Shown here: piece after piece, positions 2,573 through 29,468 of the stretch
How the letters are laid out: each line of letters opens with the position of its first letter
Position numbering within the stretch: the stretch's first letter is position 1
NCBI GenBank assembly: GCA_030524635.1
Contig: JAUNGG010000016.1
Coordinates: 1-64,000, forward strand
Source: Lachnospiraceae bacterium
GTDB lineage: Bacteria > Bacillota > Clostridia > Lachnospirales > Lachnospiraceae
Length of the DNA stretch: 64,000 nucleotides
Direction: 5' to 3'
Translations under genes and position numbers: made by a program
The notes under the pieces: model-generated
Databases searched by the model: none
The model's input: the letters and a program-made list of their open reading frames with translations, nothing else
What the model was told of the DNA's origin: nothing

Positions 2573-2649
2573 GGCGGTTTCCTCCTTATCTCAGCAATCC
2601 CCATATTTATCATGGCTTTATGTTCAGACTGCCGAAATTCACTTACAAA

Positions 2650-2692
2650 ATATGTTAGTATGATTCTGTTAATATCAATATGATACTAACAT
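2650..2692. promoter_or_regulatory. 11-bp-arm inverted repeat upstream of the NADAR operon
   Basis: The arms TATGTTAGTAT (2650-2660) and ATACTAACATA (2682-2692) are exact inverted repeats separated by 21 bases. The spacer contains AT-rich promoter-like sequence reading toward the NADAR gene, including TTGATA as a possible -35. Its position just upstream of an operon encoding an NrtR-like protein suggests an operator; this is inference. It is not followed by a T-run and is unlikely to be a terminator. Confidence 0.5.
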
Positions 2693-2735
2693 AATAACAG
2701 GAAATCGATATGCTGTCAAGTTCAAACAGGATCTT

Positions 2736-2779
2736 GAAAAAAACATTGGTTCACATAAAAAAATTATGTGAACCAATGT
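2736..2779 (-). terminator. Rho-independent terminator after the LCP gene
   Basis: A perfect 16-bp stem (2743-2758 with 2764-2779) and a 5-base loop, followed on the minus strand by seven T. It lies 37 bases beyond the LCP-family stop codon and closes the NlpC/P60-LCP transcription unit. Confidence 0.9.
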
Positions 2780-2815
2780 AAAAAACCTATTATTTCCAAA
2801 ATGATTCCGCCTCGC

Positions 2816-6593: not shown

Positions 6594-6622
6594 TTGACGA
6601 TTCTGATACTTCGAGATATAAT
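6594..6622 (+). promoter_or_regulatory. SigA-type promoter of glmS
   Basis: TTGACG (6594-6599), a 17-base spacer and TATAAT (6617-6622). Transcription should begin near 6629, about 50 bases before the ribozyme cleavage site. Confidence 0.85.
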
Positions 6623-6651
6623 GTGACCAATCTGCTTATAAGGAGGAGCAG

Positions 6652-6705
6652 ATGCAGGATTACTTCAATACGAACAAGCGCCATGCACCGGTTTTGGGGT
6701 CGTGA
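6652..6705 (+). CDS. 17-codon reading frame over the ribozyme cleavage site
   Basis: ATG at 6652 preceded by AAGGAGG with 5 bases between; the peptide would be MQDYFNTNKRHAPVLGS. It starts about 23 bases after the predicted transcription start. The ribozyme cleavage position falls inside codon 9 and the stop lies inside the ribozyme's 5' hairpin. The Shine-Dalgarno sequence is one of the best in this region, but there is no independent evidence of translation. Either this is a leader peptide that interferes with ribozyme folding, or the purine-rich element is chance. Confidence 0.3.
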   Translation: MQDYFNTNKRHAPVLGS

Positions 6706-6870
6706 AGGCTTCTGAGAAGGATGGCTGAATATGACAGACTGGAAGCTTCTGGAATCGGTTAACGAGGTGGAGAGAGAATCGAATTATTCGGCGGGTGCTC
6801 TCCCGTGCCGCTTTGAGCATGTGATCGCTGCTGAAAATATGCGGGTAACTGCAAAACAAAAGGCAGGGAA
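6665..6870 (+). ncRNA. glmS ribozyme-riboswitch
   Basis: A self-cleaving RNA that uses glucosamine-6-phosphate as cofactor and shuts off glmS. The conserved parts are present in order: the AAGCGCC cleavage region (cut expected between 6677 and 6678), a variable P1/P2 arm, the core AACGAGGTGGAG, then AATCGAA, TTCGGCGGGTGCTCTCCCG, and 3' pairing elements ending near GGCAGGG. It sits directly upstream of glmS on the same strand, as expected. Outer boundaries are approximate. Confidence 0.95.
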
Positions 6871-6906
6871 TCAAAGCAATAAAAAAAAGAAATGGAATGA
6901 AGGATT

Positions 6907-8727
6907 ATGTGTGGAATTATTGGATATACCGGCCCATTGGAGGCCAAACGTTTATTAATAGAAGGCCTTGCTGGTCTTGAGTACCGCGGCTATGACAGCG
7001 CGGGCATTGCATTTTTTCGAACGGATTCTAAAATCCAGGTAATTAAGCAGGTGGGAAAGGTAGCTGCCCTGAAGGAGGCCTGCGAAGGAATTTCTGTTGG
7101 CTCCCACTGCGGCATCGGTCATACCCGCTGGGCTACCCACGGCGGTGTGACCAATGAAAATGCCCATCCCCACCAGGCAGGGCAGGTAACCCTGATCCAT
7201 AATGGGATCATTGAAAATTACCATCAGCTTACCGAAGAGTTTCAGCTTCAGGATGAGCTGGTATCTCAGACAGACAGCGAGGTGGCAGCCCGGGTCCTGG
7301 ACCGGTTTTATCAGGGAGATCCATTTGTGGCGATCCAGAAGCTGGTGGGAAAGCTGGAGGGCTCCTATGGCTTCTGCATCCTGTTTGCTGACCGTCCAGG
7401 AGAGATCTACGCCGTCCGCAGCGTAAGCCCGCTGGTAGCAGCCTATACCCATTCCGGTGCGGTGATCGCCTCCGACCTGACGGCACTGATCCCTTATACC
7501 CAGTCCTACTTTGTGGTTCCGGAGGGCGAGATCGTCCGCCTGACACCTTACAAGGTTCAGACTTACGACCTGCAGACCTTTGCAAAGACACAGCCGCCTG
7601 TCATGACAGTAAACTGGAACATGGATGCGGCAATGAAAAATGGATTTCCCCACTTTATGCTGAAGGAGATCCACGAACAGCCGGAAGCGATGAAGAATAC
7701 CATTCTGCCCCGGTTGAGCAAGGGCCTTCCGGATTTCACAGATGATGGAATCGACGATGAGATCTTCCGCTCCTGCACCCAGGTCCACATCATTGCCTGC
7801 GGAACTGCCATGCATGCAGGTATGGTGGCCAAGACGGTGATGGAGCCGCTTTTACGGATTCCGGTAACCGTCACCATCGCATCAGAATTCCGGTATCAGC
7901 AGCCGCTGATCGATGAGCACACACTGGTCATCGTGATCTCCCAATCCGGTGAGACCATCGATACCCTGGCTGCTATGCGGCTTGCCCGGGAGTATGGCTC
8001 CCAGACGCTGGCGATCGTCAATGTGAAGGGCTCTACCATTGCCAGGGAAAGCGGATATGTTCTCTACACCCACGCTGGCCCGGAGATCGCAGTGGCCAGC
8101 ACCAAGGCATATTCCGTTCAGCTTGCCGCCCTTTACCTGATTGCCTGCCGGATGGCGCTGGTTCGCGGCAAATATACGAAGGAACAGGCGCGGACATTTC
8201 TGGCAGAATTTCTGGATGTGATCCCTGCTATGGAAGAGATGATCAAGCGGCGGGAAGAAATGAAGGCAGTGGTCACCCATATTATCAACAGCCCGGATGC
8301 GTTCTTTATCGGCAGGGGTCTGGATTATGCCTTTTCTCTGGAAGGAGCCCTGAAGCTGAAGGAGATCTCCTACATCCACGCAGAGGCCTATGCGGCAGGA
8401 GAACTGAAGCACGGCACCATTGCACTAATCTCTGATCAGGTTCCGGTGATCGCCACCGCGACCCAGGATAATATTTTTGCAAAGTCCATGTCCAATGTGC
8501 GTGAGGTCAAGGCCAGAGGTGCTTTTGTGATCCTGATTACCAAGGAAGGGGCAAAAGTGGATGGGGATCTGGCGGATATCCATATTATGATCCCTGCTGT
8601 GAGGGATATCTTTACTGTGTTCCCAATCGCGGTAGTGCTGCAGCTAATCGCCTACTACGCTTCTCTGGGGAAGAATCTGGATGTGGATCAGCCGCGAAAT
8701 CTGGCAAAGTCGGTTACGGTGGAATAA
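6907..8727 (+). CDS. glmS: Glutamine-fructose-6-phosphate aminotransferase
   Basis: 606 aa, normal length. Makes glucosamine-6-phosphate from fructose-6-phosphate and glutamine, the first step toward UDP-GlcNAc and peptidoglycan. The N-terminal glutaminase begins MCGIIGYTG with the nucleophile Cys2 and shows the HTRWATHG and HNGIIENY motifs. Two SIS sugar-binding domains follow (VISQSGETIDTLAA, STKAYSVQL, and the C-terminal KEISYIHAEAY and DQPRNLAKSVTVE). AAGGATT precedes the ATG. It is monocistronic: its own promoter and ribozyme lie upstream and a bidirectional terminator downstream. Confidence 0.98.
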   Translation: MCGIIGYTGPLEAKRLLIEGLAGLEYRGYDSAGIAFFRTDSKIQVIKQVGKVAALKEACEGISVGSHCGIGHTRWATHGGVTNENAHPHQAGQVTLIHNGIIENYHQLTEEFQLQDELVSQTDSEVAARVLDRFYQGDPFVAIQKLVGKLEGSYGFCILFADRPGEIYAVRSVSPLVAAYTHSGAVIASDLTALIPYTQSYFVVPEGEIVRLTPYKVQTYDLQTFAKTQPPVMTVNWNMDAAMKNGFPHFMLKEIHEQPEAMKNTILPRLSKGLPDFTDDGIDDEIFRSCTQVHIIACGTAMHAGMVAKTVMEPLLRIPVTVTIASEFRYQQPLIDEHTLVIVISQSGETIDTLAAMRLAREYGSQTLAIVNVKGSTIARESGYVLYTHAGPEIAVASTKAYSVQLAALYLIACRMALVRGKYTKEQARTFLAEFLDVIPAMEEMIKRREEMKAVVTHIINSPDAFFIGRGLDYAFSLEGALKLKEISYIHAEAYAAGELKHGTIALISDQVPVIATATQDNIFAKSMSNVREVKARGAFVILITKEGAKVDGDLADIHIMIPAVRDIFTVFPIAVVLQLIAYYASLGKNLDVDQPRNLAKSVTVE

Positions 8728-15638: not shown

Positions 15639-15699
15639 ATCTATGGCTCTTTCACCACAAAGCTCCCGCCCTAGCACGGAACAGAAGCTGCACGGCCTC

Positions 15700-16776
15700 C
15701 TATAAAATATAAACTCCCTGGGGATCAAATGCCAGACAGGCTGTCTCGCCCACCTCATAGATCCTGCGGTTTACCGGATTATAATCGGTGATCTGAATCT
15801 CCATGTCTCCAACCATCATCTGATAGTACTGGTAAGCCCCCATGAATGTGGACAAGGTCACCTTACCTTCCAGAATTCCCTGATCCGCCAGCGCGGCTGC
15901 CTCCGGACGGATCACCAGCACGGCAGAGGAGCCTGGGGCGGCATTGGCGAAGTTGCTGACCTCCAGCTCCCTTCCGGCTACCTGTATCTTTGCTTTCTCA
16001 CCGTTTACGGCCAGAACCTTTGCATTCAGGAAATTAGCCTCCCCGATGAAGTCTGCCACAAACCGGGAATTGGGATGATAATAAATCTCCCGGGGCGTGC
16101 CGATCTGCTCTACCTTGCCCTTGCTCATAATAATGATCTGATCGGAGATACTCATTGCCTCCGACTGGTCATGAGTAACGTAAATTGCCGTAATTCCCAC
16201 CTTCTGCTGGATCTTGCGGATCTCTGTCCGCATGGTAACCCGCAGCTTGGCATCCAGGTTGCTGAGGGGCTCGTCAAAAAGCAGCACGCCGGGCTCCAGA
16301 ACCAAGGCGCGGGCCAAGGCCACACGCTGCTGCTGACCGCCGGAAAGCTGGTTGGTCATACGAGATTCCATGCCGTCCATCTCCACCAGCTTGAGAATAT
16401 TCAGTACCCGCTGACGGATCTCCTCCTTGGGAAGCTTCCGGATCTTCAGACCATAGGCCACATTGTCAAATACATTGTAATGGGGAAGCAGCGCATAGCT
16501 TTGGAATACCATGGCTGTGTCCCGCTTATTGGGAGTCAGGCTGTTGATGGCCTCACCGCCCAGATAGATCTCTCCCTCATCCGGACTTTCAAAGCCGGCG
16601 ATCATGCGAAGGGTGGTAGTCTTGCCGCAGCCGGAGGGCCCAAGCAGCGTTACAAAGCTGCCGGGCTCAATGTCAAGGGTGGTATCCTCCACCGCATAAA
16701 AATCCTTTCCCGTCTTTGGATCCTGGTAAATTTTTGAAATATGTTCCAGGCGTACGCCCTTTTTTTGTTTTTCCAT
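15700..16776 (-). CDS. ABC transporter ATP-binding protein (FbpC/PotA type)
   Basis: 358 aa. ATPase subunit of an importer: Walker A LLGPSGCGKTT near residue 45, signature LSGGQQQRVALARAL, Walker B VLLFDEPLSNLDAKLR, and a H-loop in YVTHDQSEAMS. The last 120 residues form a TOBE-type regulatory domain, as in ferric-iron, polyamine and thiamine importers. It lies 6 bases downstream of the permease gene. The domain make-up does not decide the substrate; the gene set best fits Fe(III) import. Confidence 0.88.
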   Translation of the reverse strand: MEKQKKGVRLEHISKIYQDPKTGKDFYAVEDTTLDIEPGSFVTLLGPSGCGKTTTLRMIAGFESPDEGEIYLGGEAINSLTPNKRDTAMVFQSYALLPHYNVFDNVAYGLKIRKLPKEEIRQRVLNILKLVEMDGMESRMTNQLSGGQQQRVALARALVLEPGVLLFDEPLSNLDAKLRVTMRTEIRKIQQKVGITAIYVTHDQSEAMSISDQIIIMSKGKVEQIGTPREIYYHPNSRFVADFIGEANFLNAKVLAVNGEKAKIQVAGRELEVSNFANAAPGSSAVLVIRPEAAALADQGILEGKVTLSTFMGAYQYYQMMVGDMEIQITDYNPVNRRIYEVGETACLAFDPQGVYIL

Positions 16777-16782
16777 ATCCTG

Positions 16783-18492
16783 CTATGCCTCCTCTTTTAT
16801 CTTCCTGCTGACACCGAAATACTTGATCAGCGTATTCATGATCAGTACGGCGCCGTATGTAATCGCAATCAGCACAGTGGCGTAAGCGCAGGCCACACCG
16901 TAGTTGCCCTTCTCAGCCTGCTCATTGATCTGGCAGGTGATCAGCAGGAAGTCCGGCGTTACCAGCAGAATGATTGCGGAAATTGCCGTGATGCTCCGCA
17001 CAAAAGCGGTCACCAGGCCGCTGAAGAAGGAATCCTTGATTAAAGGCAGCGTCACAGTCATAAATACCCTGGCGGAATTGGCACCCATGTCATACGCCGA
17101 TTCTTCAATGGATTTATCGATCTGGCGCAGCGCCGAGATACCGCTTCGGGTACCGGTGGGCAGGCTTCGCACGATAAATACGATGATCAGGATCAGGCCG
17201 GTTCCGTAAAGGCCGCTCATAAAGCCGGTGCGGAACAGGCCGTTAGCATAACCGCGGATATATCCGATGCCAAGCACCGTTCCCGGCACCGCCATAGCCA
17301 GCATGGAAACAAACTCAATAAAGCCTTTGGACCGGAATTTTTTCTTTACTACCAGATAAGAAATCACCATAGACAGGAATGCGGTAATAGGAGAAGCGAT
17401 CAGGGACAGCACAAAGGAATCCTTGAAAGCTTTCAGGCCGCTGGTCTTAAACATATACTGGAACCATTTCAGGGAGAGGCTGTAATCTCTTCCCCACAGC
17501 GTAAATAACGCACCAAAGGGCACCATAATGTACATCAGCAGTACAAATGCAGCTACCAGACCGCAGAAGATAGTAAGCGGTACGGTTACGCTCTTATCCT
17601 CGATCAGCATGCGCATCCGGGATGCCTTGCCGGTAAGGGTGGCCGCCGTCTTCTTCTCCAGATAATATTTCTGAATCAGGAACAGCACTACCGTCAAAGA
17701 CAGCAGCACCACGGACATGGCAGCAGCTCCGGTGGAGTCGTAGGCTCCGGTCACCTGCAGATAGATTGTGGTAGCCAATGTATCGTAAGAGCCTCCGATC
17801 AGCATAGGGTTGGCAAAATCCGCAACCGATTCAATAAAGGTTACCAGGAATGCGTTTCCAAGACCTGGAAGCAGCAGCGGAAATGTAACGCTGGTAAACA
17901 CCTTCCAGCGAGTCGCTCCCATATCCCGGGTCGCCTCTTCCAGAGAAGGATCGATATTTTTCAAAAGGCCTTTCAGCATCAGATAGCAGACCGGGAAAAA
18001 GGTCATGGTCTGTACAATGGCAATTCCTTTCAGCCCATATACATTAGAATCATAGATCCCCAGCAGAGAACGGGTGATGATACCGCTTCTTCCAAACAGC
18101 ATGATCATGGACAGGGACAGTACAAAAGGCGGAGATACTACCGGAAGCATGGATACCAGTGCAAACAGCTTCTCCAAAAGCTTTGTTTTCAGCTTTACAT
18201 ATACTTCCACATAGGCAAACAGCAGACCGATGGCCGTAGATGCCAGGCCGGTAATAAAGCCCAGCACCAGAGTATTGCTGAATGCCTTGCGGAAACGTTC
18301 CAGACTCAATACCCGCTTAAATACATTTATGGTCACATGTCCGTCCTCGATAAAGCTGTCCACCAGCAGCATCAGAAGCGGGTAAAGGATAAACAGTGCC
18401 AGAAATATCAGCAGCACCACGATCATACTGATCAAAATCGGGTCGGAAAAGAATTTTTTGCGCTCAAGGCTGGCGCTTTGTCTTCTGGCCAC
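16783..18492 (-). CDS. ABC transporter permease, two fused domains (FbpB/ThiP type)
   Basis: 569 aa, about 12 membrane helices. Two binding-protein-dependent permease domains are fused in one chain: the first carries the EAA loop EEATRDMGATRWKVFTSV near residue 185, the second EESAYDMGANSARVFMTV near residue 470. This arrangement is usual for ferric-iron and thiamine importers. The start is GTG with GGAGG nine bases upstream; the site lies in a small AAGGAG/CTCCTT palindrome that could reduce initiation. A terminator-like hairpin separates it from the binding-protein gene. Confidence 0.9.
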   Translation of the reverse strand: MARRQSASLERKKFFSDPILISMIVVLLIFLALFILYPLLMLLVDSFIEDGHVTINVFKRVLSLERFRKAFSNTLVLGFITGLASTAIGLLFAYVEVYVKLKTKLLEKLFALVSMLPVVSPPFVLSLSMIMLFGRSGIITRSLLGIYDSNVYGLKGIAIVQTMTFFPVCYLMLKGLLKNIDPSLEEATRDMGATRWKVFTSVTFPLLLPGLGNAFLVTFIESVADFANPMLIGGSYDTLATTIYLQVTGAYDSTGAAAMSVVLLSLTVVLFLIQKYYLEKKTAATLTGKASRMRMLIEDKSVTVPLTIFCGLVAAFVLLMYIMVPFGALFTLWGRDYSLSLKWFQYMFKTSGLKAFKDSFVLSLIASPITAFLSMVISYLVVKKKFRSKGFIEFVSMLAMAVPGTVLGIGYIRGYANGLFRTGFMSGLYGTGLILIIVFIVRSLPTGTRSGISALRQIDKSIEESAYDMGANSARVFMTVTLPLIKDSFFSGLVTAFVRSITAISAIILLVTPDFLLITCQINEQAEKGNYGVACAYATVLIAITYGAVLIMNTLIKYFGVSRKIKEEA

Positions 18493-18582
18493 AGAAGGAG
18501 ACCTCCTTTCTCATTATCAGACGAAATCAAGAAGCTCCATGTTCTTGATGGGAAATGCAGTCATACCTGGCATGACAGATTA

Positions 18583-18621
18583 TAAAAAACGCTGCGCAAT
18601 GCGTTGGCCGCACCGCGCAGC
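18583..18621 (-). terminator. Intra-operon terminator/attenuator after the binding-protein gene
   Basis: GCTGCGC and TGCG (18591-18603) pair with CGCA and GCGCAGC (18609-18621), followed on the minus strand by six T. It lies between the substrate-binding-protein gene and the permease gene. Partial read-through would give more binding protein than membrane components, as is common in ABC importers. Confidence 0.75.
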
Positions 18622-18667
18622 ATCTGCCATTCATGTCAGGGCATGATACGGGGAAACAAACTTCTCT

Positions 18668-19837
18668 TTATTCTGTCTTAAATCGATCATCGCCGGAGCT
18701 TCCCAGTGCGTTGAAGAAATCTTCCACGTATTTTGCGCTGTTTGCTTTCGCATCCTCGAAATCATAGTCGATGGTATTGTTCATATCCAGACCGAACTCG
18801 GTAGCCTCCTTGGGCTGCTCTGCATTGCTCAGTACCAGGAACTGATAGGAGCCATTGTCCTTTGCAATATTTACGCAGTCCGGAGAAAGCGCATACTCGA
18901 TCCACAGCTTTGCTGCGTTCGGATGGGTGCAGCCCTTGAAGATTGCGGTAGCGCCTACCTCAAAGGAGGTGCCGTCTTCTGGAACGATCAGCTGGATATT
19001 GTCATAGCCCTGCAGAATCTGATAGATACCGTCATGCAGGAAGCCTACGCCGATCACACACTCGCCAGGGCCTACCATCTTGGATGGGCCGGAGCCGGAC
19101 TTGGTGTACTGGGATACATTGGGATCCAGCTTCTTGAAGTATTCCATCGCCTCGTCATGGCCCTTCATCTGAACCATGGTATTGATCACCAGCTTTGCGG
19201 TACCTGCTGTATTAGGATTAGACAGCATAATCAGGCCCTTGTACTCCTCCTTGGTCAGATCGTCCCAGGTCTTCGGCGCCTCCAGTCCAAGGCGCTCCAG
19301 CTCCTCGGTGTTCGTCATAAAGCCCAGGATGCCTTTGTAGATGCCGTACCAGCAGTTGGTAGGATCTTTGTAATCCTCGCTGATCAGGTTTGCTGCATTG
19401 ATCGCCTCATACGGCTCCAGAAGGCCGTCTGCCACCGCCTCATTGTACGGATCGGTAGTGCCGCCGAACCATACGTCTGCTGACGGCTTTCCTGCTTCCT
19501 CAGAAATCTTGGTATAAACCTCAGAAGTGGAAAGTCTTTGGAATTTGGTCTTAATGCCGTAGAGCTTCTCAAAGTTCTGGCAGGCAGCGGAAAGGTACTC
19601 CTCCTCACAGGAACCATAAACCGTCAGCTCGCCCTCTGCCTTTGCCGCTTCGATCAGGGCATCCAGGCCGCCGGCCTCGCTTTCTGCTGCTTCTGTCTCA
19701 GCCTCTGCGCTGGCTGCTTCTGAGGCTGCTTCGGTGGCCGGTGCTGCAGTTGTCTCCGGTGCTGCTTCCTTGCTGCCGCATGCCGTCATGCCAAGCATCA
19801 TGGATGCTGCAAGAAGTAATGCTAATTTCTTTTTCAT
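18668..19837 (-). CDS. ABC substrate-binding lipoprotein, iron(III) type
   Basis: 389 aa. Exported lipoprotein: signal peptide with lipobox LGMTAC. A Thr/Ala/Glu-rich linker is followed by a periplasmic-binding fold of the FbpA/AfuA superfamily (EGELTVYGSCEEE, SADVWFGGTTD, GIGVGFLHDG-like segment, and GSYQFLVLSNAEQP near the end). The start at 19837 has GGAGGAGG upstream; the longer frame has no site. Classical FbpA proteins hold iron through paired tyrosines, which are not obvious here, so the ligand could be another anion or chelate. First gene of the operon. Confidence 0.85.
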   Translation of the reverse strand: MKKKLALLLAASMMLGMTACGSKEAAPETTAAPATEAASEAASAEAETEAAESEAGGLDALIEAAKAEGELTVYGSCEEEYLSAACQNFEKLYGIKTKFQRLSTSEVYTKISEEAGKPSADVWFGGTTDPYNEAVADGLLEPYEAINAANLISEDYKDPTNCWYGIYKGILGFMTNTEELERLGLEAPKTWDDLTKEEYKGLIMLSNPNTAGTAKLVINTMVQMKGHDEAMEYFKKLDPNVSQYTKSGSGPSKMVGPGECVIGVGFLHDGIYQILQGYDNIQLIVPEDGTSFEVGATAIFKGCTHPNAAKLWIEYALSPDCVNIAKDNGSYQFLVLSNAEQPKEATEFGLDMNNTIDYDFEDAKANSAKYVEDFFNALGSSGDDRFKTE

Positions 19838-19997: not shown

Positions 19998-20078
19998 TAG
20001 CTTTTGTGTAAAAATATCAATTTTCAAGAAAATAGTGCAGAAAAATATTCTATTTTCACAATTAAGATTTTCACAATT

Positions 20079-20119
20079 AAAAAAGAGAAGACGCGGCTCA
20101 AAACGCGGTCTTCTCTTTT
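20079..20119 (-). terminator. Terminator overlapping the end of the ABC ATPase gene
   Basis: AAAAGAGAAGA-CGCG (20081-20095) pairs with CGCG-G-TCTTCTCTTTT (20104-20119), with a T-run following on the minus strand. The upstream arm codes for the last residues of the ATPase (EKTAF), so coding sequence and terminator share bases. Confidence 0.85.
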
Positions 20120-21204
20120 CCAAGCTCGGCAAGCACTTGATTCTTCTGATTCATGGTTCCAAATTCTGTCAGGCAGCAGATCACCTGCTCACAGGAAGCC
20201 ATCACAGAGGCGGCCCGCTGAAAGCTGCCTTCTTTGATGGGTTCAAAGGGCTGCTCTTCAATAACTTCTGCTGCCAGCGCCTTTGCAATGGGATATTCCA
20301 CATCATTTTTATGGAGCACCCCGGCAGCAAAGGGGATCCCCTGTCTCTGCAGCCGGCGGTATACAGGAATTCCGCTTCCATTTCCGCCGATGACAAACAC
20401 CTTCGGCGTTCCCTTCACCGGTTCCAGCTCCAGGCATCCCAGCTCAGCCTGGAAGCTTCCTTTGGTAATGCCATATAATTCTGAAATATAGGAAGAGGTA
20501 AAAATCTCCTCAGGAGTTCCCAGGCGGTCGATCCGGTTCTGGCTGACACAGACCACATAGTCAGAAATCTTTTGTGCCAGATCCAGCTCATGAAGTGACA
20601 TCAGCACCGCTGTTTTCTTTTGCCGCACCAGCTCCTTTAAGATCGCCAGGATTTCCAGCTTATGACGGATATCCAGAAATGAAGTAGGTTCATCCAGCAC
20701 GATCACCTGGGGCTCCTGGCAGATGGCGCGGGCAAGGAGGATCCTCTGCCGCTGCCCGTCACTGATCTGGGAAAAATCCTGCCCGGCAAGTGCTTCCCCG
20801 TGAACCAGCTGCAAGGCTTCTTTCACCTTCCGTTTGTCCTGCTCATGAAGGATTCCAAGCCGTCCGGTATAAGGATAACGTCCGGTGGCCACCACCTCCT
20901 CACAGGTCATCAGCTCCGGGTGGATCCGTTCTGTCATCAGCACTGCCATTCGGGTTGCGATCTCCTTTTCCGACATCTTCATCATGGAAGTCCCGTCCAG
21001 ATACACCGTTCCGCCCAGCAGCTTCAGCTGACGGATTATGGTCTTCAATATAGTAGATTTCCCGGCTCCGTTAGGCCCGATCAGCGTTACGATCTCCCCT
21101 TTTTTAATATGAAGCCGGATCTGGCGGATCAGCGGCGTTTTTCCGTAGCCTACCGTCAGATCATCGGTATAAACAAAGTCATTGGTCACGCAATCATCCC
21201 TCAA
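20098..21204 (-). CDS. FecE/BtuD-type ABC ATPase with an extra C-terminal domain
   Basis: 368 aa against about 255 for a usual FecE/BtuD ATPase. Walker A GPNGAGKST is near residue 45, followed by a signature motif in a variant form (ISDGQRQRILLARA), Walker B VIVLDEPTSFLD and H-loop SLHELDLA. The last 110 residues add a separate segment beginning PKVFVIGGNGSGIPVYRR, which resembles a small Rossmann-like nucleotide-binding fold; its role is unknown. The start is TTG with GAGGAGG seven bases upstream. Last gene of the riboswitch operon; powers the FecCD permease encoded upstream. Confidence 0.88.
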   Translation of the reverse strand: MRDDCVTNDFVYTDDLTVGYGKTPLIRQIRLHIKKGEIVTLIGPNGAGKSTILKTIIRQLKLLGGTVYLDGTSMMKMSEKEIATRMAVLMTERIHPELMTCEEVVATGRYPYTGRLGILHEQDKRKVKEALQLVHGEALAGQDFSQISDGQRQRILLARAICQEPQVIVLDEPTSFLDIRHKLEILAILKELVRQKKTAVLMSLHELDLAQKISDYVVCVSQNRIDRLGTPEEIFTSSYISELYGITKGSFQAELGCLELEPVKGTPKVFVIGGNGSGIPVYRRLQRQGIPFAAGVLHKNDVEYPIAKALAAEVIEEQPFEPIKEGSFQRAASVMASCEQVICCLTEFGTMNQKNQVLAELGKEKTAF

Positions 21205-21227
21205 GCAAATACCTCCTCAATCATTTC

Positions 21228-22244
21228 TTAAAGCTGATGAACCGTCCGCTTTACCATCATATAGATCACAACAGGTGCGCCGAACACTGCTGTCACGGAA
21301 CTGATTCCCAGCTCCGTAGGCGAAAAAAGGGTTCTGGCGATCAGGTCGCAGAACAGGCAGAATACAGCCCCTCCCAGGAAGCAGCCAGGAATGATCAGAA
21401 GCGGCTTGGAGGTGCCAAACAGGCTTTTTACCAGATGAGGAACGGCAATTCCCACAAAGGAGATGGGGCCAGCGAAGGCTGTCACGCAGGCTGCCAGGAT
21501 GCTGGAAAGCAAAATCAGTTCTCCACGGAAGCGGCGGATATTGACTCCCATGCTCTGGGCATAGACCTCTCCCATCTGATAGGCGCCGATGGGCTTTGCC
21601 ATCATCATTACCAGCACCAGGGAGATGGAAATGATCACAGCCATCACCTGGACATTCTCCCAGGATATCCCGGAAAAGCTTCCCATGGACCAGTTATGCA
21701 GATTGACGATATTGGCATCCTCAGCAAAGGTGACGGCAAAATCCGTTACAGCTGAGCAGATATAGCTGATCATGACGCCGCAGATCACCAGAGTGGACAT
21801 CCGCTTTACCCGGCCGGAAATCAGCAGGACGAAGCCCATGGAGATCATGGCACCTGCAAAGGCCGCCAGGATCATGGCTGCCGAAGTGATGGTCAGCCCC
21901 TTTCCTAAAAACAGGATCATCACAAGAGAAACGGACAGCTTCGCACCAGAGGAGATTCCCAGAACAAAGGGCCCTGCGATCGGATTGGAAAAGAAGGTCT
22001 GAAGGAGGAAGCCGGATACGGAAAGAGCTCCTCCCATCATAGCCGCCGCCAGGATCCTGGGCAGGCGGATGTCCCAGATGATGTGGCAGGCTGTGTTGTT
22101 GCTGCTTTTTCGAAGCAAAATCTCCCAGATCTCCATTATGGACAGATGAATGCTGCCGGAATTGATGCTGCAGAAAAATAGAAACAGTACTGCAGCTGCC
22201 AGCAGGCACAGGAAAAACAGGTGGTTGATATGTGGTCGTTTCAT
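21228..22244 (-). CDS. FecCD/BtuC-type ABC permease
   Basis: 338 aa, about ten membrane helices. Family members carry siderophores, haem or corrinoids. Typical features are DIRLPRILAAAMMGGALSVSGF near residue 57, the FSNPIAGPFVLGISSGA segment, and the cytoplasmic FVGIAVPHLVKSL coupling helix near residue 267. It lies between the binding-protein and ATPase genes. With the cobalamin riboswitch upstream, corrinoid or another tetrapyrrole is the likeliest cargo. Confidence 0.9.
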   Translation of the reverse strand: MKRPHINHLFFLCLLAAAVLFLFFCSINSGSIHLSIMEIWEILLRKSSNNTACHIIWDIRLPRILAAAMMGGALSVSGFLLQTFFSNPIAGPFVLGISSGAKLSVSLVMILFLGKGLTITSAAMILAAFAGAMISMGFVLLISGRVKRMSTLVICGVMISYICSAVTDFAVTFAEDANIVNLHNWSMGSFSGISWENVQVMAVIISISLVLVMMMAKPIGAYQMGEVYAQSMGVNIRRFRGELILLSSILAACVTAFAGPISFVGIAVPHLVKSLFGTSKPLLIIPGCFLGGAVFCLFCDLIARTLFSPTELGISSVTAVFGAPVVIYMMVKRTVHQL

Positions 22245-22278
22245 TGAAACCTATCTCCTTTGCAGCAAAACAAAATTT

Positions 22279-23523
22279 TCATCGCAGTTGGTGCAGGTAA
22301 GTCATCGCCTCCGGATCCGGCTGATCTTCCGTCAGAAGCCGATGGATGTCCAGAATCATATCACCAAGCCCCATGGTCTCCTGAAACAGATTCTTTCCGG
22401 TACACCATACATGGCCTTCTTTCACTGCCTTAAAATCAGCAAAAAGACTGCTCTTTTCCAGAAATTCATCCAATGATTTCAGTTCTCCGTCAATGGTGCT
22501 GTTGTAGATGATGTAATCCGCATCCTTTGCTGCCCCATAGAAGGCTTCCATCTGCATATTCATGGTAGATAAGGCATTTTCTTCTTCATCCAGATCCTGG
22601 GGAACATAGGTGCCGCCGGCAAGCTGAATCATTTTCGCCACGTAATCACCGGATTTTCTTACATTCACCGAGCCGTTGGAGGTGACATAGAAAAATGCCG
22701 CCGTCTTTCCGGTAGCCTCCTGGGACATGACCGGCTCCAGCTGCTGAAACTGCTGATTCAGATAGCTCTCAGCCTGCTCCTCCTGATCCAGCAGGACGGC
22801 GTACAGCATCAGCCATTCCATCCTTCCCAGCGGATGGCTCTCGTAGCTGGAGCGCTCCACCAGAACCGGGATTCCCAGAGATTCCAATTGCTCCTTCACC
22901 TCCGGGGAATGGTAGATCATAGTGGATTCGATGGCAAGATCACAGTCCTTTGACAGGATCAGCTCATAATCCGGCGCGCTGTATTTGCCGGCATACTGCA
23001 TCCTTCCCTCCTCCAGTGCCTGCTTTGCTTCCTCAATATACCAGCCGGAGGCGGCAGTTCCGGACAAGGTAACGGCATCAATGCGGTCCAGGCTCTGAAA
23101 CAGATCCATGGCGGAGGTAGCTGCCAGATAAATATTATCCAAAGGCTTCTGGATGATAGTTACATCCTCCGGAAGTCCCTGTGGAACCGATCCCTGCTCC
23201 GGGATGACCAGATAGCGGTCTTTGCTCTGAATGGAGATCAGGGCCATTCCGTCCGGATAATAGTCTACAGAAAACTGGCTGGCGTAACGCAGCTTCAGAC
23301 TGTGCTCTGGAGTAAGGGAGTCCCAGGTTACTGCCGGTTTCCCACTGGAACCTGCGTCCAGGAGCTCTTCCGGAGCAGATTCCTTGTCTGCCCCATGGCC
23401 AATTCTGTCGCCCGCTCCATATTTTGCTCCGCAGCCTGCCGCCAGAAGAACAAACAGCCATACAGCTGCCATCAGCAGCCCGTTTCTCGCCGTTCTTGTT
23501 GTCATTTTAATCATATGCATCAT
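22279..23523 (-). CDS. BtuF/FecB-type substrate-binding lipoprotein
   Basis: 414 aa. Lipoprotein signal with lipobox LLAAGC (Cys31). A periplasmic-binding-type fold follows: a first lobe around YLAATSAMDLFQSLD, a long linking helix rich in Glu/Gln (SYLNQQFQQLEPV) and a second lobe with GGTYVPQDLDEEENALSTMNM. This is the type III binding-protein layout used for corrinoids, haem and siderophores. The first ATG overlaps the preceding stop (ATGA); two later ATG codons are possible starts and the ribosome-binding site is weak. It delivers ligand to the adjacent permease. Confidence 0.83.
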   Translation of the reverse strand: MMHMIKMTTRTARNGLLMAAVWLFVLLAAGCGAKYGAGDRIGHGADKESAPEELLDAGSSGKPAVTWDSLTPEHSLKLRYASQFSVDYYPDGMALISIQSKDRYLVIPEQGSVPQGLPEDVTIIQKPLDNIYLAATSAMDLFQSLDRIDAVTLSGTAASGWYIEEAKQALEEGRMQYAGKYSAPDYELILSKDCDLAIESTMIYHSPEVKEQLESLGIPVLVERSSYESHPLGRMEWLMLYAVLLDQEEQAESYLNQQFQQLEPVMSQEATGKTAAFFYVTSNGSVNVRKSGDYVAKMIQLAGGTYVPQDLDEEENALSTMNMQMEAFYGAAKDADYIIYNSTIDGELKSLDEFLEKSSLFADFKAVKEGHVWCTGKNLFQETMGLGDMILDIHRLLTEDQPDPEAMTYLHQLR

Positions 23524-24512
23524 TCAACCTTTTGTAAAGAGGCCGAGTCAAAGGTCAGGGTGTAGGTGACCTCGTGAGGAACGCTCATGGCGGTTGTATC
23601 TGCGATTACCGTCATCTTCCAGTCAAAGCCGGCTACCGGGATCTCAAATGTGGAGTGCTCTTCTGTCCCCGCCCACTGGTACTTCTCGTCATTTACCTTC
23701 ATATAGTCATAATTGGCACTTCCCCAGACGATGGTTGCATATACTGTTCCGTCCTCCACCCGCAGGCTGGCCGGAGATTCTACCGATGCCCGGCCGGAGC
23801 CGCCGTCTAATGCAACCTCTGCCGTGTACCTGCCGTCCTCCAGCCCCAGGTCCTCTGCTGTCACAAAGGTTTCGCCGGAAAAGGCATCTGCCGGAAGAGA
23901 GTCCGCGCGAAATACCAGGGTACGGTCATACCACTTTTCCTTCTTCTTGCTGTAGGCGCTGCAGGAGATCCCGGCATCCAGCGCTTCTACCGGCAGAAGG
24001 AAGGTGCAGGCGCCGGTTTCATCCTCTTCCGATAGAATATAATCCGTCTCTGCTGCCTTCACAGCCTCTTCTCCCGTTCCCAGATAAAGCTTTCCATATC
24101 CAGTACCGCTCATGGTGATCCTGGCCTCCATGATCCCGCTGGACACGGTCAGCTTACCGTCTGTAATATGAAACATGCTGGAGCTGGAATCTACCGTGAT
24201 CGGGTAAACACCATCCTTGATTTCCGTTCCGTAAATGGGCGTCATATCCTCTGTCACCACATCCACCGGACTGATCGTTTCATCGGCTGAAGCTACCTGA
24301 CCAGACTGGCTGTCAGATTCTGATGATTCATTTGCGTCTGTACTGCTTTCTGGATCCTGTGTTTGGATATCCGTTTCTTCTGTTCCGTTTTCCGCCTTTA
24401 CCGGCTCCGTTCCTTCCGTGCCGGAAGCAGCCGTTCTTCCCTGTCCGCACCCGGAGGCAAGGAGGGATACGGCAGCAATGATGGATGCTGTCTGCATTAA
24501 AAAGCGCTTCAT
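23520..24512 (-). CDS. Two-repeat surface lipoprotein, possibly NEAT-like
   Basis: 330 aa. Lipobox LLASGC (Cys22), then an acidic Ser/Thr/Glu linker to about residue 90. Two related beta-rich repeats follow at about 98-204 and 223-323. Both begin with a DG-x-Y element (IKDGVYPITV, LEDGRYTAEV), followed by a DGK/DGT turn and a Tyr-rich strand. The second repeat has YDYMKVNDEKY, reminiscent of the tyrosine pattern with which NEAT domains hold haem. Size and layout fit NEAT-like domains, but the match was not verified. Placed between the chelatase and the binding protein, it may pass tetrapyrrole between them (inference). Confidence 0.65.
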   Translation of the reverse strand: MKRFLMQTASIIAAVSLLASGCGQGRTAASGTEGTEPVKAENGTEETDIQTQDPESSTDANESSESDSQSGQVASADETISPVDVVTEDMTPIYGTEIKDGVYPITVDSSSSMFHITDGKLTVSSGIMEARITMSGTGYGKLYLGTGEEAVKAAETDYILSEEDETGACTFLLPVEALDAGISCSAYSKKKEKWYDRTLVFRADSLPADAFSGETFVTAEDLGLEDGRYTAEVALDGGSGRASVESPASLRVEDGTVYATIVWGSANYDYMKVNDEKYQWAGTEEHSTFEIPVAGFDWKMTVIADTTAMSVPHEVTYTLTFDSASLQKVE

Positions 24513-24589
24513 GTTTTTTCACCTGCAAATGGGCGATCAGCAACAGCTCCGACCGCCCACTCTTTCTATTGATTTCTTATATCCTTATC

Positions 24590-25645
24590 TTACTGTGCCA
24601 GACGGTCCATAGCTGCCTGCGCGTGCTCCACAAATAACTGCTGGATCGGCTCTAACTCACCCAGGCCGCGAACCACACAGGTAACCTCATATCCGGCATC
24701 TTCAAATGCCGTCTTCCAGGAACCTTCCTCATCACCGGCCATATCATTATTAGCATGATCACCGGCAACGATCATTAACGGTTCTAATACCACCTTTTTG
24801 TACTCACCGGCCTGAACGGCTTCCAGCACATCCTCCAGGGATGGCTCAGCCTCTACCGTTCCTACATAATAGTTGGTATATCCGGCAGCAGTCAGCATCT
24901 GCTGCATTTTAGCATAAATCTGATTGGACTCTGCCTCAGTGCCGTGTCCCATAAAGCAGATGGCCGTCTCACCGTCATCATATTCAGCGGTGGCCTCTGT
25001 AATGGCCTTCATCACAGCTGCGAAATCTTCATCCGAGGTCAGCAGCGGCTCGCCTACCTCAATCTGTTCAAAGGCATCGGCATATTCGGCCAGTTCATTT
25101 ACCAGATCGGTGTACTCCAGACCGTTCATCAGATGGGTGGGCTGCACCACCAGTGTCTTCACACCATTCTCTACAGCCCGGTCCAGAGCCTCGCCTACGT
25201 TATCAATGGAAACCTTGTCGCGGGATTTTACATGGTCAATGATGATCTGGCTGGTAAAGCCTCTTCTCACAGAATACTCCGGAAATGCCTTCTCCATGGC
25301 ATCCTCAATGGCACCGATGGTTAAACGGCGGTTGTCATTGTAGCTGGTACCGAAGCTGACTACCATCAGCTCCTTTTCACCGATCTCATCCTGGTTTCTG
25401 GTGTTGTCTAATGCAGCATCGCCGGTGTCATAATTTTCCTCGTCCTCTTCTGCTTCCGCCTCGGTCTCCTCTGCGCTGGTTTCCTCTGCCTCTGGGGTTG
25501 TTTCTTTCGTTTCTGCGGCGGTGGTCTCTGCAGAGGCTTCTGTAACTGCTGCCTCCGTCTCTGCCTGTCCTCCGGAGCATCCCGCTACGGCTGCGGCTGC
25601 CAGAGATACGGCTGCAAATAATAGGGCTGCTTTCTTCAATTTCAT
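24590..25645 (-). CDS. cbiK: Exported CbiK-type sirohydrochlorin cobaltochelatase, lipoprotein
   Basis: 351 aa. Residues 1-23 form a lipoprotein signal (lipobox around AVAGC, Cys23), followed by an acidic Thr/Glu linker to about 85 and a complete CbiK domain from KELMVVSFGTSY onward. Both catalytic/metal histidines are visible: His234 in FMGHGTE and His297 in AGDHANND. Cytoplasmic CbiK inserts Co2+ into sirohydrochlorin for anaerobic B12 synthesis; an anchored, extracytoplasmic copy cannot act directly in that pathway. It more likely binds or remodels tetrapyrroles or metal outside the cell. AAGGAGG precedes the ATG. First gene after the riboswitch. Confidence 0.88.
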   Translation of the reverse strand: MKLKKAALLFAAVSLAAAAVAGCSGGQAETEAAVTEASAETTAAETKETTPEAEETSAEETEAEAEEDEENYDTGDAALDNTRNQDEIGEKELMVVSFGTSYNDNRRLTIGAIEDAMEKAFPEYSVRRGFTSQIIIDHVKSRDKVSIDNVGEALDRAVENGVKTLVVQPTHLMNGLEYTDLVNELAEYADAFEQIEVGEPLLTSDEDFAAVMKAITEATAEYDDGETAICFMGHGTEAESNQIYAKMQQMLTAAGYTNYYVGTVEAEPSLEDVLEAVQAGEYKKVVLEPLMIVAGDHANNDMAGDEEGSWKTAFEDAGYEVTCVVRGLGELEPIQQLFVEHAQAAMDRLAQ

Positions 25646-25963
25646 CTTTTTCTCCTCCTTATTTCCTTCTGGAACATCGTTCCAGGACCGATGTTCCAGG
25701 CACTTTCATGAGCCTTTCGGCTGCCTGTATCAAGGTATCACGATGCAAGGGAATAAAAATTAAGAAACTAGGAGATAGAAATGGAAAGCAGCTCAAACGG
25801 GAAGAACCTGTGCAGGCTTATAAGCCGGGCACAGCATCTGAAAACCTATAAAACATTCCTGCTTGAGTCAGAGACCTGCAGCGCATATGCCGCAGACCGG
25901 CGCGATCAATTCCTCGTGATCTGGATTTGTAGCAATTCCGTAATTTCTATTTTCCTGCACCTG
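25646..25963 (-). promoter_or_regulatory. Leader between the cobalamin riboswitch and cbiK
   Basis: About 318 bases without a convincing gene. It holds a hairpin at 25809-25835 (CTGTGC/GCACAG and GGCTT/AAGCC arms). Just before the ribosome-binding site it holds a second one at 25669-25699, where CTGGAACATCG pairs with CGATGTTCCAG. The left arm of the latter can also fold on itself (CTGGAA/TTCCAG, 25669-25685), so two exclusive structures exist. These are candidates for the riboswitch expression platform; no strong T-run terminator is evident, so control may act on translation or on RNA stability. Confidence 0.5.
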
Positions 25964-26183
25964 CAGCTGGCAGGTTTCCTGACTTGCCGATCATCACATA
26001 TGACTGCCTTCCCAATCCAGATCCGGATCAGTGACCTTCTCACGCAGCAGCTCCATATAACTGCTCTTACGTTTTCTCTAAAATCATACGCTCCCGGGTT
26101 ACAGTGACGAGATCGCACAGGATTTCCACCTGTTTCCCTTTTACCCTTCAGCCTGCAAAGCAGCAGACCAAAGGCACCAGCTG
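25964..26183 (-). ncRNA. Cobalamin riboswitch
   Basis: Read on the minus strand, all the hallmark elements occur in order. P1 is CAGCTGG/CCAGCTG, closing 26177-26183 with 25964-25970. GGTGCC follows, then AAAAGGGAAACAGGTGGAAATCCTG, GTCACTGTAACCC, GGGAAGGCAG, and the B12-box-like AAGTCAGGAAACCTGCC. It would repress the downstream cbiK-transport operon when adenosylcobalamin or a related corrinoid is abundant. The consensus is slightly loose around GCGATCTCGTCAC. Confidence 0.93.
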
Positions 26184-26205
26184 TTCTTTACTCGATATGC
26201 CCTCT

Positions 26206-26234
26206 ATCCTACCACTGAATGGAGGAAATTGCAA
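26206..26234 (-). promoter_or_regulatory. Promoter of the cobalamin-riboswitch operon
   Basis: TTGCAA (26229-26234), a 17-base spacer and TAGGAT (26206-26211) preceded by TGG, on the minus strand. The transcript would start about 15-20 bases before the riboswitch P1 stem and only about 50 bases after the pepT stop. Confidence 0.75.
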
Positions 26235-27782: not shown

Positions 27783-29468
27783 ATGGCGCGAACCATTGGG
27801 ATTGGTCAGCAGGATTTTGAAACGATCATCACACAGGATAATTTTTATATCGATAAAACGGATTTCATCCGGCAGTGGTGGAACTCTCGGGACGCAGTGA
27901 CTTTGATTACGCGTCCCCGCCGTTTTGGAAAAACATTGGCTATGAGTATGATCCAACAGTTTTTTTCTGTACAGTATTCTGGAAGAACGGATTTGTTTCA
28001 GCGTTTTTCGGTCTGGAAGGATGAAAAATTCCGAAATTTGCAGGGAAGTTATCCCGTTATCAGTCTTTCTTTTGCTAATATTAAAGAAAAAAATTACCTG
28101 ACGGCCCGGAGGAAGATCTGCCAGCTGATTGTAAATTCATATGAACAGCATGCGTATTTACTGAACAGTGATCGGTTATCAAATTATGACCGGGAGTTTA
28201 TTCAGCGGATTTCCATTGAAATGGAAGATGCGGAGGCTACCTTTGCGCTTTATCAACTTTCTTCCTATCTGTTTAAATATTATGGAAAAAAGGTAATCAT
28301 TCTTCTGGACGAATACGATACCCCAATGCAGGAGGCTTATGTTGACGGCTATTGGGAGGAGCTGGCTTCCTTTACCCGCAGCTTCTTGAATGCGACCTTT
28401 AAAACCAATCCCTATTTGGAGCGGGGGCTGATGACCGGAATTACCCGAATCAGCAAGGAGTCCATCTTCTCCGATCTGAATAATCTGGAAGTGGTCACCA
28501 CAACCTCCGAGAAATATGCAGATTGTTTTGGATTTACAGAAACAGAGGTATTTACAGCCTTAGATGAATATGGATTAGCTCACAAGAAAGACTCCGTAAA
28601 GGAATGGTATGATGGTTTTATCTTTGGAACAATATCAGATATTTATAATCCATGGTCGATCATTAATTTTCTGGATAAAAGGAAGCTGACTGCTTACTGG
28701 GCGAATACCAGTTCTAACAATCTGGTCAGTAAATTAATCCGGGAAGGCAGCCGGCAGATTAAGCAGGATTTTGAAACGCTGATGCAGGGAAATACATTAA
28801 TTGTTCCCATTGATGAACAGATTATTTATAATCAGCTTTCTGTAAGAAAAAGTTCGATCTGGAGCCTGCTGCTCGCCAGCGGATATTTAAAAGCGGTACA
28901 GACCAGGTTTATGGAATCCACCGGACGTGTTTATTATTACCTGGAAGTCACCAATAAGGAAGTACGGATCATGTTTGAAAATATGATCCGGGATTGGTTT
29001 TCGGAATATGATGATAACTATAACGATTTTATCCGGGCACTGCTCTTGGGAGATAAAAGCGCAATGAATCGGTATATGAATCAGGTAGCATTATCTACCT
29101 TCAGCTTTTTTGACAGCGGAACCCATCCTTCCGGGCAGTCCGAGCCGGAACGATTTTATCATGGCTTTGTGTTGGGATTGATCGTTGATCTGGCAGACCG
29201 ATATGCCATTACCTCAAATCGAGAAAGTGGATTTGGACGATATGATGTGATGCTGGAGCCCAAATTGGCTCAGGATGATGGAATCATCATTGAGTTTAAG
29301 GTTAGGAATCCAGATACTGAAAAGAGCTTGCAGGATACGGTGGCAGAGGCACTTGCACAGATTGAGCAGAGGCAGTACCAGACCGCGATGGAGGCAAAGG
29401 GAATTCCGGCGGAACATATTCGAAAGTATGGATTTGCCTTTGAGGGAAAAAAAGTTTTAATTGGATGA
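27783..29468 (+). CDS. AAA-ATPase-like / PD-(D/E)XK nuclease-like protein (DUF1703 group)
   Basis: 561 aa. The N-terminal AAA_ATPase-like domain starts at IGQQDFETII. It has the characteristic FYIDKTDFI, Walker A RPRRFGKT near residue 43, and Walker B VIILLDEYDTP near residue 178. The C-terminus has a PD-(D/E)XK-like core: GRYDVMLEP and IIIEFKVRN near residues 480-510. GGAGGAATTGAT precedes the ATG. The family is common and often multicopy in gut anaerobes; its function is not established, with proposals including mobile or defence roles. It is more AT-rich than its neighbours and stands alone between a promoter and a terminator, which suggests acquisition by transfer. Confidence 0.87.
   Translation: MARTIGIGQQDFETIITQDNFYIDKTDFIRQWWNSRDAVTLITRPRRFGKTLAMSMIQQFFSVQYSGRTDLFQRFSVWKDEKFRNLQGSYPVISLSFANIKEKNYLTARRKICQLIVNSYEQHAYLLNSDRLSNYDREFIQRISIEMEDAEATFALYQLSSYLFKYYGKKVIILLDEYDTPMQEAYVDGYWEELASFTRSFLNATFKTNPYLERGLMTGITRISKESIFSDLNNLEVVTTTSEKYADCFGFTETEVFTALDEYGLAHKKDSVKEWYDGFIFGTISDIYNPWSIINFLDKRKLTAYWANTSSNNLVSKLIREGSRQIKQDFETLMQGNTLIVPIDEQIIYNQLSVRKSSIWSLLLASGYLKAVQTRFMESTGRVYYYLEVTNKEVRIMFENMIRDWFSEYDDNYNDFIRALLLGDKSAMNRYMNQVALSTFSFFDSGTHPSGQSEPERFYHGFVLGLIVDLADRYAITSNRESGFGRYDVMLEPKLAQDDGIIIEFKVRNPDTEKSLQDTVAEALAQIEQRQYQTAMEAKGIPAEHIRKYGFAFEGKKVLIG

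Follow-up and report, generated by a model that had tools for sequence, protein, structure and literature searches.

What does a gut bacterium of the Lachnospiraceae import with an operon that places a chelatase with an export-type N terminus and an ABC importer behind a cobalamin riboswitch? The operon lies in the window analyzed here, a stretch of 64,000 nucleotides from a genome that is about 94% complete. An earlier note, made by reading the DNA alone, had proposed a salvage route for corrinoids or metallo-tetrapyrroles. Our analysis instead favors the intake of cobalt together with a ring precursor for B12 biosynthesis, a reading to which we assign a probability of roughly 0.57.

Open reading frames and Rfam and Pfam matches confirm the operon that the note had outlined, with five genes in the order it gave, all on the minus strand, behind a cobalamin riboswitch aptamer (25952..26196, minus strand; RF00174, 92.3 bits versus a cut-off of 31.5, E 1.3e-21). 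Among the 150 candidates scored out of 278 from a first look, this aptamer is the sole RF00174 match in the window's own genome at E≤0.001. The leader from the aptamer to gene 1 (25640..25960, minus strand; fold z-score −2.60, 1 of 100 shuffles equally stable) is predicted to pair the AAGGAGG ribosome-binding site with a UCUCCU stretch upstream, which possibly constitutes the expression platform. The promoter claimed at 26206-26234 fared worse, being absent from the sites that reach the promoter-scan threshold, so that a resemblance is all that remains of it. At the other end, a terminator-like hairpin with a T run (20078..20116, minus strand) that overlaps the end of gene 5 was recognized by eye and is missing from the scan list.

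Gene 1 (24590..25645, minus strand; 351 amino acids) specifies a CbiK-family chelatase that is predicted to be an exported lipoprotein. It scores 278.5 bits against Pfam CbiK (gathering cut-off, 26.2) and 239.2 bits against the NCBIfam sirohydrochlorin cobaltochelatase equivalog, below the cut-off of 400, and therefore does not qualify as an equivalog. Its PDB relatives are CbiK (1qgo), FetB (9b86), presumably the former name of IhtB, and the CbiK-family protein 2xvx, which we take to be the periplasmic CbiK of Desulfovibrio vulgaris. Alignment with 1qgo locates a putative triad, H234, E265, and H297, that presumably binds metal and that is conserved in 144/144, 143/144, and 144/144 sequences with long N-terminal extensions, duplicate loci included. 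Genes 1 to 3 start with lipobox-type N termini (VAGC, ASGC, and AAGC, judged by eye), consistent with the claim that three of the five products are lipoproteins; for gene 1, the export-type start also fits the idea of a chelatase-fold protein outside the membrane.

Gene 2 (23520..24512, minus strand; 330 amino acids) encodes a predicted lipoprotein in which a NEAT-like repeat occurs twice in diverged form (about residues 98-205 and 224-322). The window protein remains below the Pfam NEAT gathering score (18.9 versus 32.8 bits, E 0.0022), 44 of the 51 members of its alignment, of which it is one, reach E≤0.05 against NEAT (best, 3.5e-11), and a PDB sequence search at E≤10 returned no match. Some relatives carry gene 2 as a fusion with gene 1 or with gene 3. 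The latter (22279..23523, minus strand; 414 amino acids) specifies a substrate-binding lipoprotein of the Peripla_BP_2 family (PF01497, 109.8 bits; cut-off, 27.5) that matches IsdE weakly (E 4.7e-4, far under the cut-off) and has no PDB sequence match at E≤0.01. The FecCD/BtuC-type permease of gene 4 (21228..22244, minus strand; 338 amino acids; Pfam FecCD, 280.5 bits; cut-off, 26.5) has BtuC as its top NCBIfam model, below the cut-off, and HmuU ahead of BtuC in the PDB ranking. Gene 5 (20098..21204, minus strand; 368 amino acids; TTG start) encodes an ABC ATPase (ABC_tran, 101.6 bits; cut-off, 25) without a PDB match at E≤1e-40; about 100 residues extend past its ABC domain, in line with the added domain noted previously, and the corrinoid-ATPase model NF007082 covers residues 13-347, also below its cut-off.

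Recurrence of this gene order far exceeds chance. Of 80 fetched loci, 66 have all five genes in the same arrangement, and 70 of 80 related loci have a covariance-model match to the cobalamin riboswitch. In 17 regions selected for a CbiD gene close to either gene 1 or gene 2, from a set gathered mostly on this basis and thus not a random sample, genes 1 to 5 invariably lie in order upstream of CbiD and the B12-synthesis genes (enzymes of regions L185 and L190 were named by NCBIfam); they are contiguous in 16, with four other open reading frames between genes 3 and 4 in the remaining one (L184), and are preceded by a riboswitch in 15. The tetrapyrrole theme attributed to the operon is supported.

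A survey of 299 genomes representing 298 genera of this one family placed gene 2 in 106 of them (E<1e-10; 9 of 115 genomes, with matches at E 1e-10 to 1e-3, are left out of the count), so that conservation reaches well beyond close relatives. CbiD is present in 104 of these 106 genomes, and only 2 of the 128 CbiD-negative genomes carry gene 2. The 171 CbiD-positive genomes comprise 94 with gene 2 only, 44 with cobalt-type CbiM only, 10 with both, and 23 with neither (Fisher, 1.2e-14), where CbiM matches weaker than 1e-20 were dropped and CbiM was separated from NikM by frame length and match end. The exclusion persists in a Pagel test (p 2e-11) on a quick CbiD tree that includes 140 of the 171 genomes and implies that gene 2 changed at least 34 times. 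This is the distribution expected of a cobalt importer that replaces CbiM in B12 makers. A gene that is nearly absent without corrin-ring synthesis, nearly excludes CbiM, and precedes B12 genes points to the supply of cobalt and a ring precursor for de novo synthesis.

The chelatase complement of these genomes is consistent with cobalt insertion at the surface. Among gene-2-bearing, CbiD-positive genomes with a single CbiK (n=52, of which G208 could not be resolved and 51 were examined for export), 49 of 51 have CbiK behind at least 75 residues and a hydrophobic start. Export was judged by a heuristic of our own on the N terminus, in place of a signal-peptide program. Because the hydrophobicity criterion was also triggered by short proteins that have no extension (L003, L064, and L065), the call relies on the 75 or more residues preceding the chelatase domain. 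CbiK matches weaker than 1e-20 were dropped in 21 of 190 genomes. A hidden CbiX chelatase was considered and rejected after a search of 63 genomes, i.e., these 52 and 11 CbiD-positive genomes devoid of CbiK. No separate CbiX appeared at E≤0.001 in any of the 52, where the listed matches are the CbiK gene itself; the 11 have no CbiX match and, thus, no chelatase that we could name. The available text of a study on Anaerostipes describes the anaerobic pathway without cbiK in most genomes (PMC12888040).

Early ring synthesis provides a second, weaker association. HemC is absent from 49 of the 94 CbiM-less gene-2 genomes versus 2 of the 44 CbiM-only genomes. Compared with a hand-picked panel of 22 HemC-positive controls, these 49 genomes rarely retain the neighboring steps: HemB was found in 0/49 versus 16/22, SUMT above the cut-off in 3/49 versus 22/22, and the precorrin-2 dehydrogenase domain PF13241 above 75 bits, a line of our own choice (80/80 genomes match at the curated cut-off), in 5/49 versus 22/22. 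Since 27 of the 49 also have no recognized CbiL, the ring taken up might be an intermediate beyond sirohydrochlorin. The link of gene 2 to HemC loss is weaker than that to CbiM: the Pagel test gives p 0.004, the Fisher test gives p 0.07 when gene 2 is called at 1e-30, and the comparison of independent pairs is not significant. In the genome that the window comes from, HemC, SUMT, and CbiL are present, along with a dehydrogenase match and a CbiK lacking the export-type extension; the operon is thus not the sole route here. HemB and CbiM gave no match in this genome. The only other sampled genome of the same genus (G111) has CbiD and HemC, with no match to gene 2 or CbiM.

We envisage that the CbiK-family lipoprotein acts as an extracellular cobaltochelatase, inserting Co2+ into a tetrapyrrole at the level of sirohydrochlorin outside the membrane. 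The NEAT-like and substrate-binding lipoproteins would then relay the metal-containing ring to the FecCD permease with its ATPase, which would bring it into the cbi pathway, and the riboswitch would turn the operon off when B12 is sufficient. The operon might thereby stand in for CbiMNQO and a cytosolic chelatase and, in many relatives, for the HemB-HemC-SUMT-dehydrogenase steps as well. For the more specific version, in which B12 biosynthesis includes an extracellular step, i.e., a surface cobaltochelatase loads cobalt onto a shared sirohydrochlorin-level ring that, once taken up as the complex, both carries the metal and is the starting point of the corrin, we see even odds.

The best-surviving alternative, although unlikely, is that the operon imports cobalt alone and uses its exported chelatase and NEAT-like protein to bind the metal, while species without HemC obtain their tetrapyrrole otherwise. 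The exclusion of CbiM, stronger than the link to HemC loss, and the ring steps from HemC onward in the window's genome suit this view, as does the precedent of CbtJKL from Sinorhizobium meliloti, described in the available text of PMC7689651 as a BtuF-like ABC importer that takes up cobalt and is controlled by an AdoCbl riboswitch, with no exported chelatase or NEAT-like part described there. Yet it leaves unexplained why a chelatase with an export-type start should keep its triad intact, the loss of HemB, HemC, and SUMT, and the lack of a further CbiK or CbiX match in most single-CbiK genomes. Import of B12 or cobinamide with the help of accessory lipoproteins seems still less probable. It would account for the riboswitch and for the top, sub-cut-off NCBIfam models of permease and ATPase, and the operon does share with BtuFCD its permease, ATPase, and binding-protein families and riboswitch control; nonetheless, it has two extra lipoproteins, precedes genes for de novo B12 synthesis, nearly excludes the cobalt importer, and, judged by gene 2, is nearly limited to B12 makers instead of occurring in B12 users unable to make the vitamin, where import is most needed. 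Of the salvage route proposed earlier, the riboswitch operon, the exported-looking chelatase, and the tetrapyrrole theme stand, and corrinoid salvage as the main role is rejected on this distribution. Least probable by our estimate is heme or iron uptake, as usually said of Porphyromonas gingivalis Iht, with the chelatase taking iron from heme: the NEAT-like repeats, the kinship of gene 1 with FetB, a heme-binding protein by its PDB name, HmuU as the closest solved permease, and the weak IsdE match are outweighed by B12 control, the position in B12 clusters, the tie to CbiD, and the exclusion of CbiM. Isd-type heme relays also combine a surface NEAT domain, a binding lipoprotein, and a FecCD-type permease; the operon differs in its B12 control, its exported chelatase, and a NEAT match below the cut-off.

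Returning to the joint intake of cobalt and ring, the Iht system of Porphyromonas, usually called a heme system, looks like the counterpart of the operon. According to the accessible parts of PMC3764172 and PMC10913741, P. gingivalis IhtABCDE comprises a CbiK-like lipoprotein (IhtB; PMC10913741), a binding protein, a permease, and an ATPase, with a B12 riboswitch before ihtA (PMC3764172); it differs by the TonB receptor IhtA, which has no equivalent among our five genes, and no NEAT-like protein is named for it in these parts. The same bacterium lacks the steps to precorrin-2, as stated in the accessible portion of PMC6461909, and the role given to Iht in that of PMC13227078 is, still in 2026, heme or iron. 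Our literature search, which covered few subscription papers or bioRxiv preprints, retrieved no description of the operon or of an extracellular route of cobalt insertion. PMC6461909, as far as available, counts 180 species as tetrapyrrole-precursor salvagers, with complete corrin synthesis and missing early steps; the three that Shelton et al. tested responded to ALA, a class distinct from the HemC-lacking genomes, and no importer for such ring precursors is named in the literature portions examined. The operon is a concrete candidate for this importer. If this reading is true, cobalt and ring would arrive together, gut bacteria would trade ring precursors, B12 synthesis in makers without a ring pathway, P. 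gingivalis included, would be explained, and Iht, "hardly characterized" in the words of PMC10913741 (partial text), would gain a new role. The operon also shows how annotation as BtuFCD or CbiK in genomes of this kind can misguide pathway reconstruction. The classical cobalt supply of the anaerobic pathway, CbiMNQO with CbiK or CbiX, relies in contrast on an ECF transporter and a cytosolic chelatase and is almost mutually exclusive with gene 2; in one CbiM-type cluster (L197), this chelatase is fused to the ATPase, and a riboswitch precedes the CbiM gene.

The five genes and the riboswitch ahead of them lie in the window where the earlier note had placed them, as judged by Rfam and by reading of the open frames. 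Rfam scores the cobalamin riboswitch aptamer (26196-25952, minus strand) at 92.3 bits; in the organism's own genome, where 150 of 278 candidates were scored, no other candidate matched at E<=0.001. Pfam and NCBIfam name gene 1 as CbiK, gene 3 as a periplasmic binding protein, gene 4 as a FecCD permease and gene 5 as an ABC ATPase, and lipoprotein-type signals are visible by eye at the N-termini of genes 1-3. The modeled leader fold would mask the ribosome-binding site of gene 1, which would fit translation control.

Both the parts of this system and its distribution were observed directly. A scan of genome contigs with an alignment of gene 2, the NEAT-like two-repeat lipoprotein, returned at least 590 stretches encoding relatives; among the best 80 loci, which were retained, 66 carry the five genes in the same order, so the conservation that the earlier note had proposed to look for is borne out. 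By our own reading, 8 of the other 14 loci end at a contig edge, and 6 depart from the full set (L079, L096, L110, L111, L120 and L138). With a covariance model based on 21 sequences, namely the window's riboswitch and 20 from relatives, a riboswitch is placed 5' of gene 1 in 69 of the 80 loci, and one is also found in L079, a locus without gene 1. Six of the 10 loci lacking a match have <360 bases of upstream sequence, and the remaining four (L111, L122, L142 and L144) genuinely lack a match at the threshold of this search. In L079, riboswitch and gene 2 follow each other at 6604-8183, and no gene-1 open frame was found; locus L077 has a second cobalamin riboswitch (6256-6465, minus strand) opposite in strand to the operon's own and beside it.

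The operon is closely tied to B12 synthesis. In a sample of 299 genomes from 298 genera of the family, gene 2, counted as present at E<1e-10, occurs in 106, of which 104 encode the corrin-ring enzyme CbiD; among the 128 CbiD-negative genomes, 2 have gene 2. The sole other sampled genome of the window's genus (G111) has CbiD and no gene-2 match. Of 20 regions fetched, 17 were selected for CbiD close to gene 1 or 2, and all 17 have genes 1-5 in order and on the same strand ahead of CbiD, contiguously in 16; in L184 four other open frames separate genes 3 and 4. The downstream genes read as cobyric acid synthase and further cob/cbi enzymes, with NCBIfam names covering L185 and L190 only. A riboswitch precedes gene 1 in 15 of these 17 regions; none was found there in L184 or in L190, whose sequence begins 120 bases before the gene.

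Gene 2 and the cobalt importer component CbiM tend to exclude each other. The 171 CbiD-positive genomes comprise 10 with gene 2 and a cobalt-type CbiM (an open frame <320 residues or a match ending by model position 202), 94 with gene 2 alone, 44 with CbiM alone and 23 with neither (Fisher 1.2e-14). The exclusion remains when any CbiM/NikM match is counted (p 1.1e-7) and is not seen between gene 2 and NikM-like matches (odds ratio 2.6, p 0.04). A quick gene tree of CbiD covering 140 genomes implies at least 34 changes of gene 2. Its well-supported branches give 9 independent pairs that differ in gene 2, of which an average of 5.4 have CbiM differing in the opposite direction and 0.1 in the same direction (median p 0.06), and a Pagel test in our own implementation gives p 2e-11, values to be read with the caveat that CbiD belongs to the same pathway and may share in transfers. 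The CbiM-type cluster L197 has a riboswitch ahead of the CbiM gene and, behind it, a chelatase and an ABC ATPase (CbiO by position) in one frame (2513-4174). Several further CbiM genomes have CbiK matches within frames of 550-600 residues.

The solved structures nearest to gene 1 are CbiK (1qgo), FetB (9b86, named haem-binding) and 2xvx. Its aligned H/E/H residues, which we take to be the CbiK metal site, are kept in 144/144, 143/144 and 144/144 relatives whose N-terminus carries a long extension (duplicate loci counted) and in 11/11 without one. Because this site is aligned and conserved, gene 1 is probably an active chelatase and more than a binding fold. It falls short of the NCBIfam equivalog cut-off for cobaltochelatase and is for that reason not filed as such. 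Fifty-two CbiD-positive genomes with gene 2 have a single CbiK match, and a CbiX search of these at E<=0.001 matched only within that CbiK. Among the 51 whose N-terminus was checked, 49 have at least 75 residues ahead of the chelatase domain and a hydrophobic export-type start, the exceptions being G026 (fused to an ATPase) and G203. The sole CbiK/CbiX candidate for cobalt insertion found in those 49 genomes is thus apparently, to judge from its sequence, an enzyme outside the cell. Eleven CbiD-positive genomes gave no strong CbiK match and no CbiX match (G003, G018, G040, G052, G094, G127, G130, G142, G167, G207 and G293).

The Pfam NEAT match of the window's gene 2 is weak; NEAT is matched at E<=0.05 by 44 of the 51 alignment members, the window's protein included (best 3.5e-11). 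In the second repeat, position H313 is H in 48, Y in 2 and V in 1 of 51 sequences, and Y317 is Y in all 51, making the pair a candidate metal-ligand motif. Five loci (L027, L028, L080, L110 and L118) have gene 2 joined to gene 1, and eight (L008, L009, L021, L026, L066, L081, L142 and L144) have it joined to gene 3; therefore, the three lipoproteins very likely work as a single unit. Several repeats of the gene-2 type are found together in very large frames, of about 930-1820 residues, in G102, G118, G040, G232, G124 and G291 (C98); in G232 and G191, such multi-repeat frames lie within about 10 kb of CbiD. Locus L122 encodes a second gene-2-type protein (15686-16867) 3' of the operon.

Many of these B12 makers lack early steps of ring synthesis. 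HemC is absent from 49 of the 94 CbiM-negative genomes with gene 2 (32 of 63 when limited to those >=95% complete) vs 2 of the 44 with CbiM only. When the tree is taken into account, gene 2 is less strongly associated with HemC loss: independent pairs are not significant and the Pagel p is 0.004. With the strictest threshold for gene 2, the Fisher p of this association is 0.07. All 58 HemC-negative CbiD-positive genomes (a gene-2 group of 49 plus 9 others) were combined with 22 HemC-positive controls into a panel of 80. SUMT exceeds its cut-off in 3/58 vs 22/22 controls; HemB is found in 0/49, 2/9 (one weak) and 16/22; and PF13241, of precorrin-2 dehydrogenase type, exceeds 75 bits in 5/49, 0/9 and 22/22, its curated cut-off being passed by all 80 genomes, weakly by those under 75 bits. 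CbiL is over its cut-off in 19/49 (3 more fall below, at 142-163 bits), 5/9 and 20/22. From these counts, the missing block stops at sirohydrochlorin in some genomes and seems to extend to CbiL in 27. The latter (e.g., G066, G131 and G297) are B12 makers with no recognised CbiL, most also without SUMT, and the step concerned is C20 methylation.

NEAT domains bind haem, and the substrate of CbiK is sirohydrochlorin. Iron, siderophores, haem and B12 are among the cargoes of FecCD-family importers (PMC2667541). We infer the chemistry and transport of the system from these family roles and the co-occurrence data, which favour a cobalt-loaded ring rather than free cobalt as the imported species. 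CbtJKL is a BtuF-like cobalt importer under B12-riboswitch control (PMC7689651). Shelton et al. (PMC6461909) define a class of tetrapyrrole-precursor salvagers, mostly Firmicutes, show three species to be ALA-dependent and list Porphyromonas gingivalis as without the steps to precorrin-2. In that bacterium, a B12 riboswitch precedes ihtA, in a locus that includes the chelatase IhtB (PMC3764172), and Iht is still assigned to haem or iron acquisition in PMC10913741 and PMC13227078. For many gut genomes, identifying the proteins that transport B12 and B12 precursors is described as a problem still open (PMC6593275). The searched literature, as far as its accessible text extends, yielded no proposal of an extracellular cobalt-insertion route. 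The operon can be regarded as a conserved variant, open to testing, of the Iht type, which is itself poorly understood.

In the window's own genome, another contig encodes CbiG, CbiD, CbiL, CbiF, CbiH and CbiJ/CbiE. HemC and SUMT are joined in one 833-residue frame, a dehydrogenase match is present, and there is a separate CbiK without N-terminal extension; searches of this genome (about 94% complete) found neither CbiM nor HemB. G049, G119, G138, G038 and G104 likewise gave no HemB match. In this organism, the operon may chiefly supply cobalt or supplement the ring.

Elsewhere in the window, a neighboring ABC operon (15700-19837, minus strand) comprises, by appearance, a binding protein, a permease and an ATPase; the top NCBIfam match of its binding protein is of a putative 2-aminoethylphosphonate type, under cut-off. 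An open frame of 561 residues (27783-29468, plus strand) gives the impression of encoding an AAA-ATPase-like protein whose C-terminus is of nuclease type, and a glmS ribozyme (6666-6879, plus strand, 59.6 bits) lies directly 5' of a glmS-like open frame (6907-8727).
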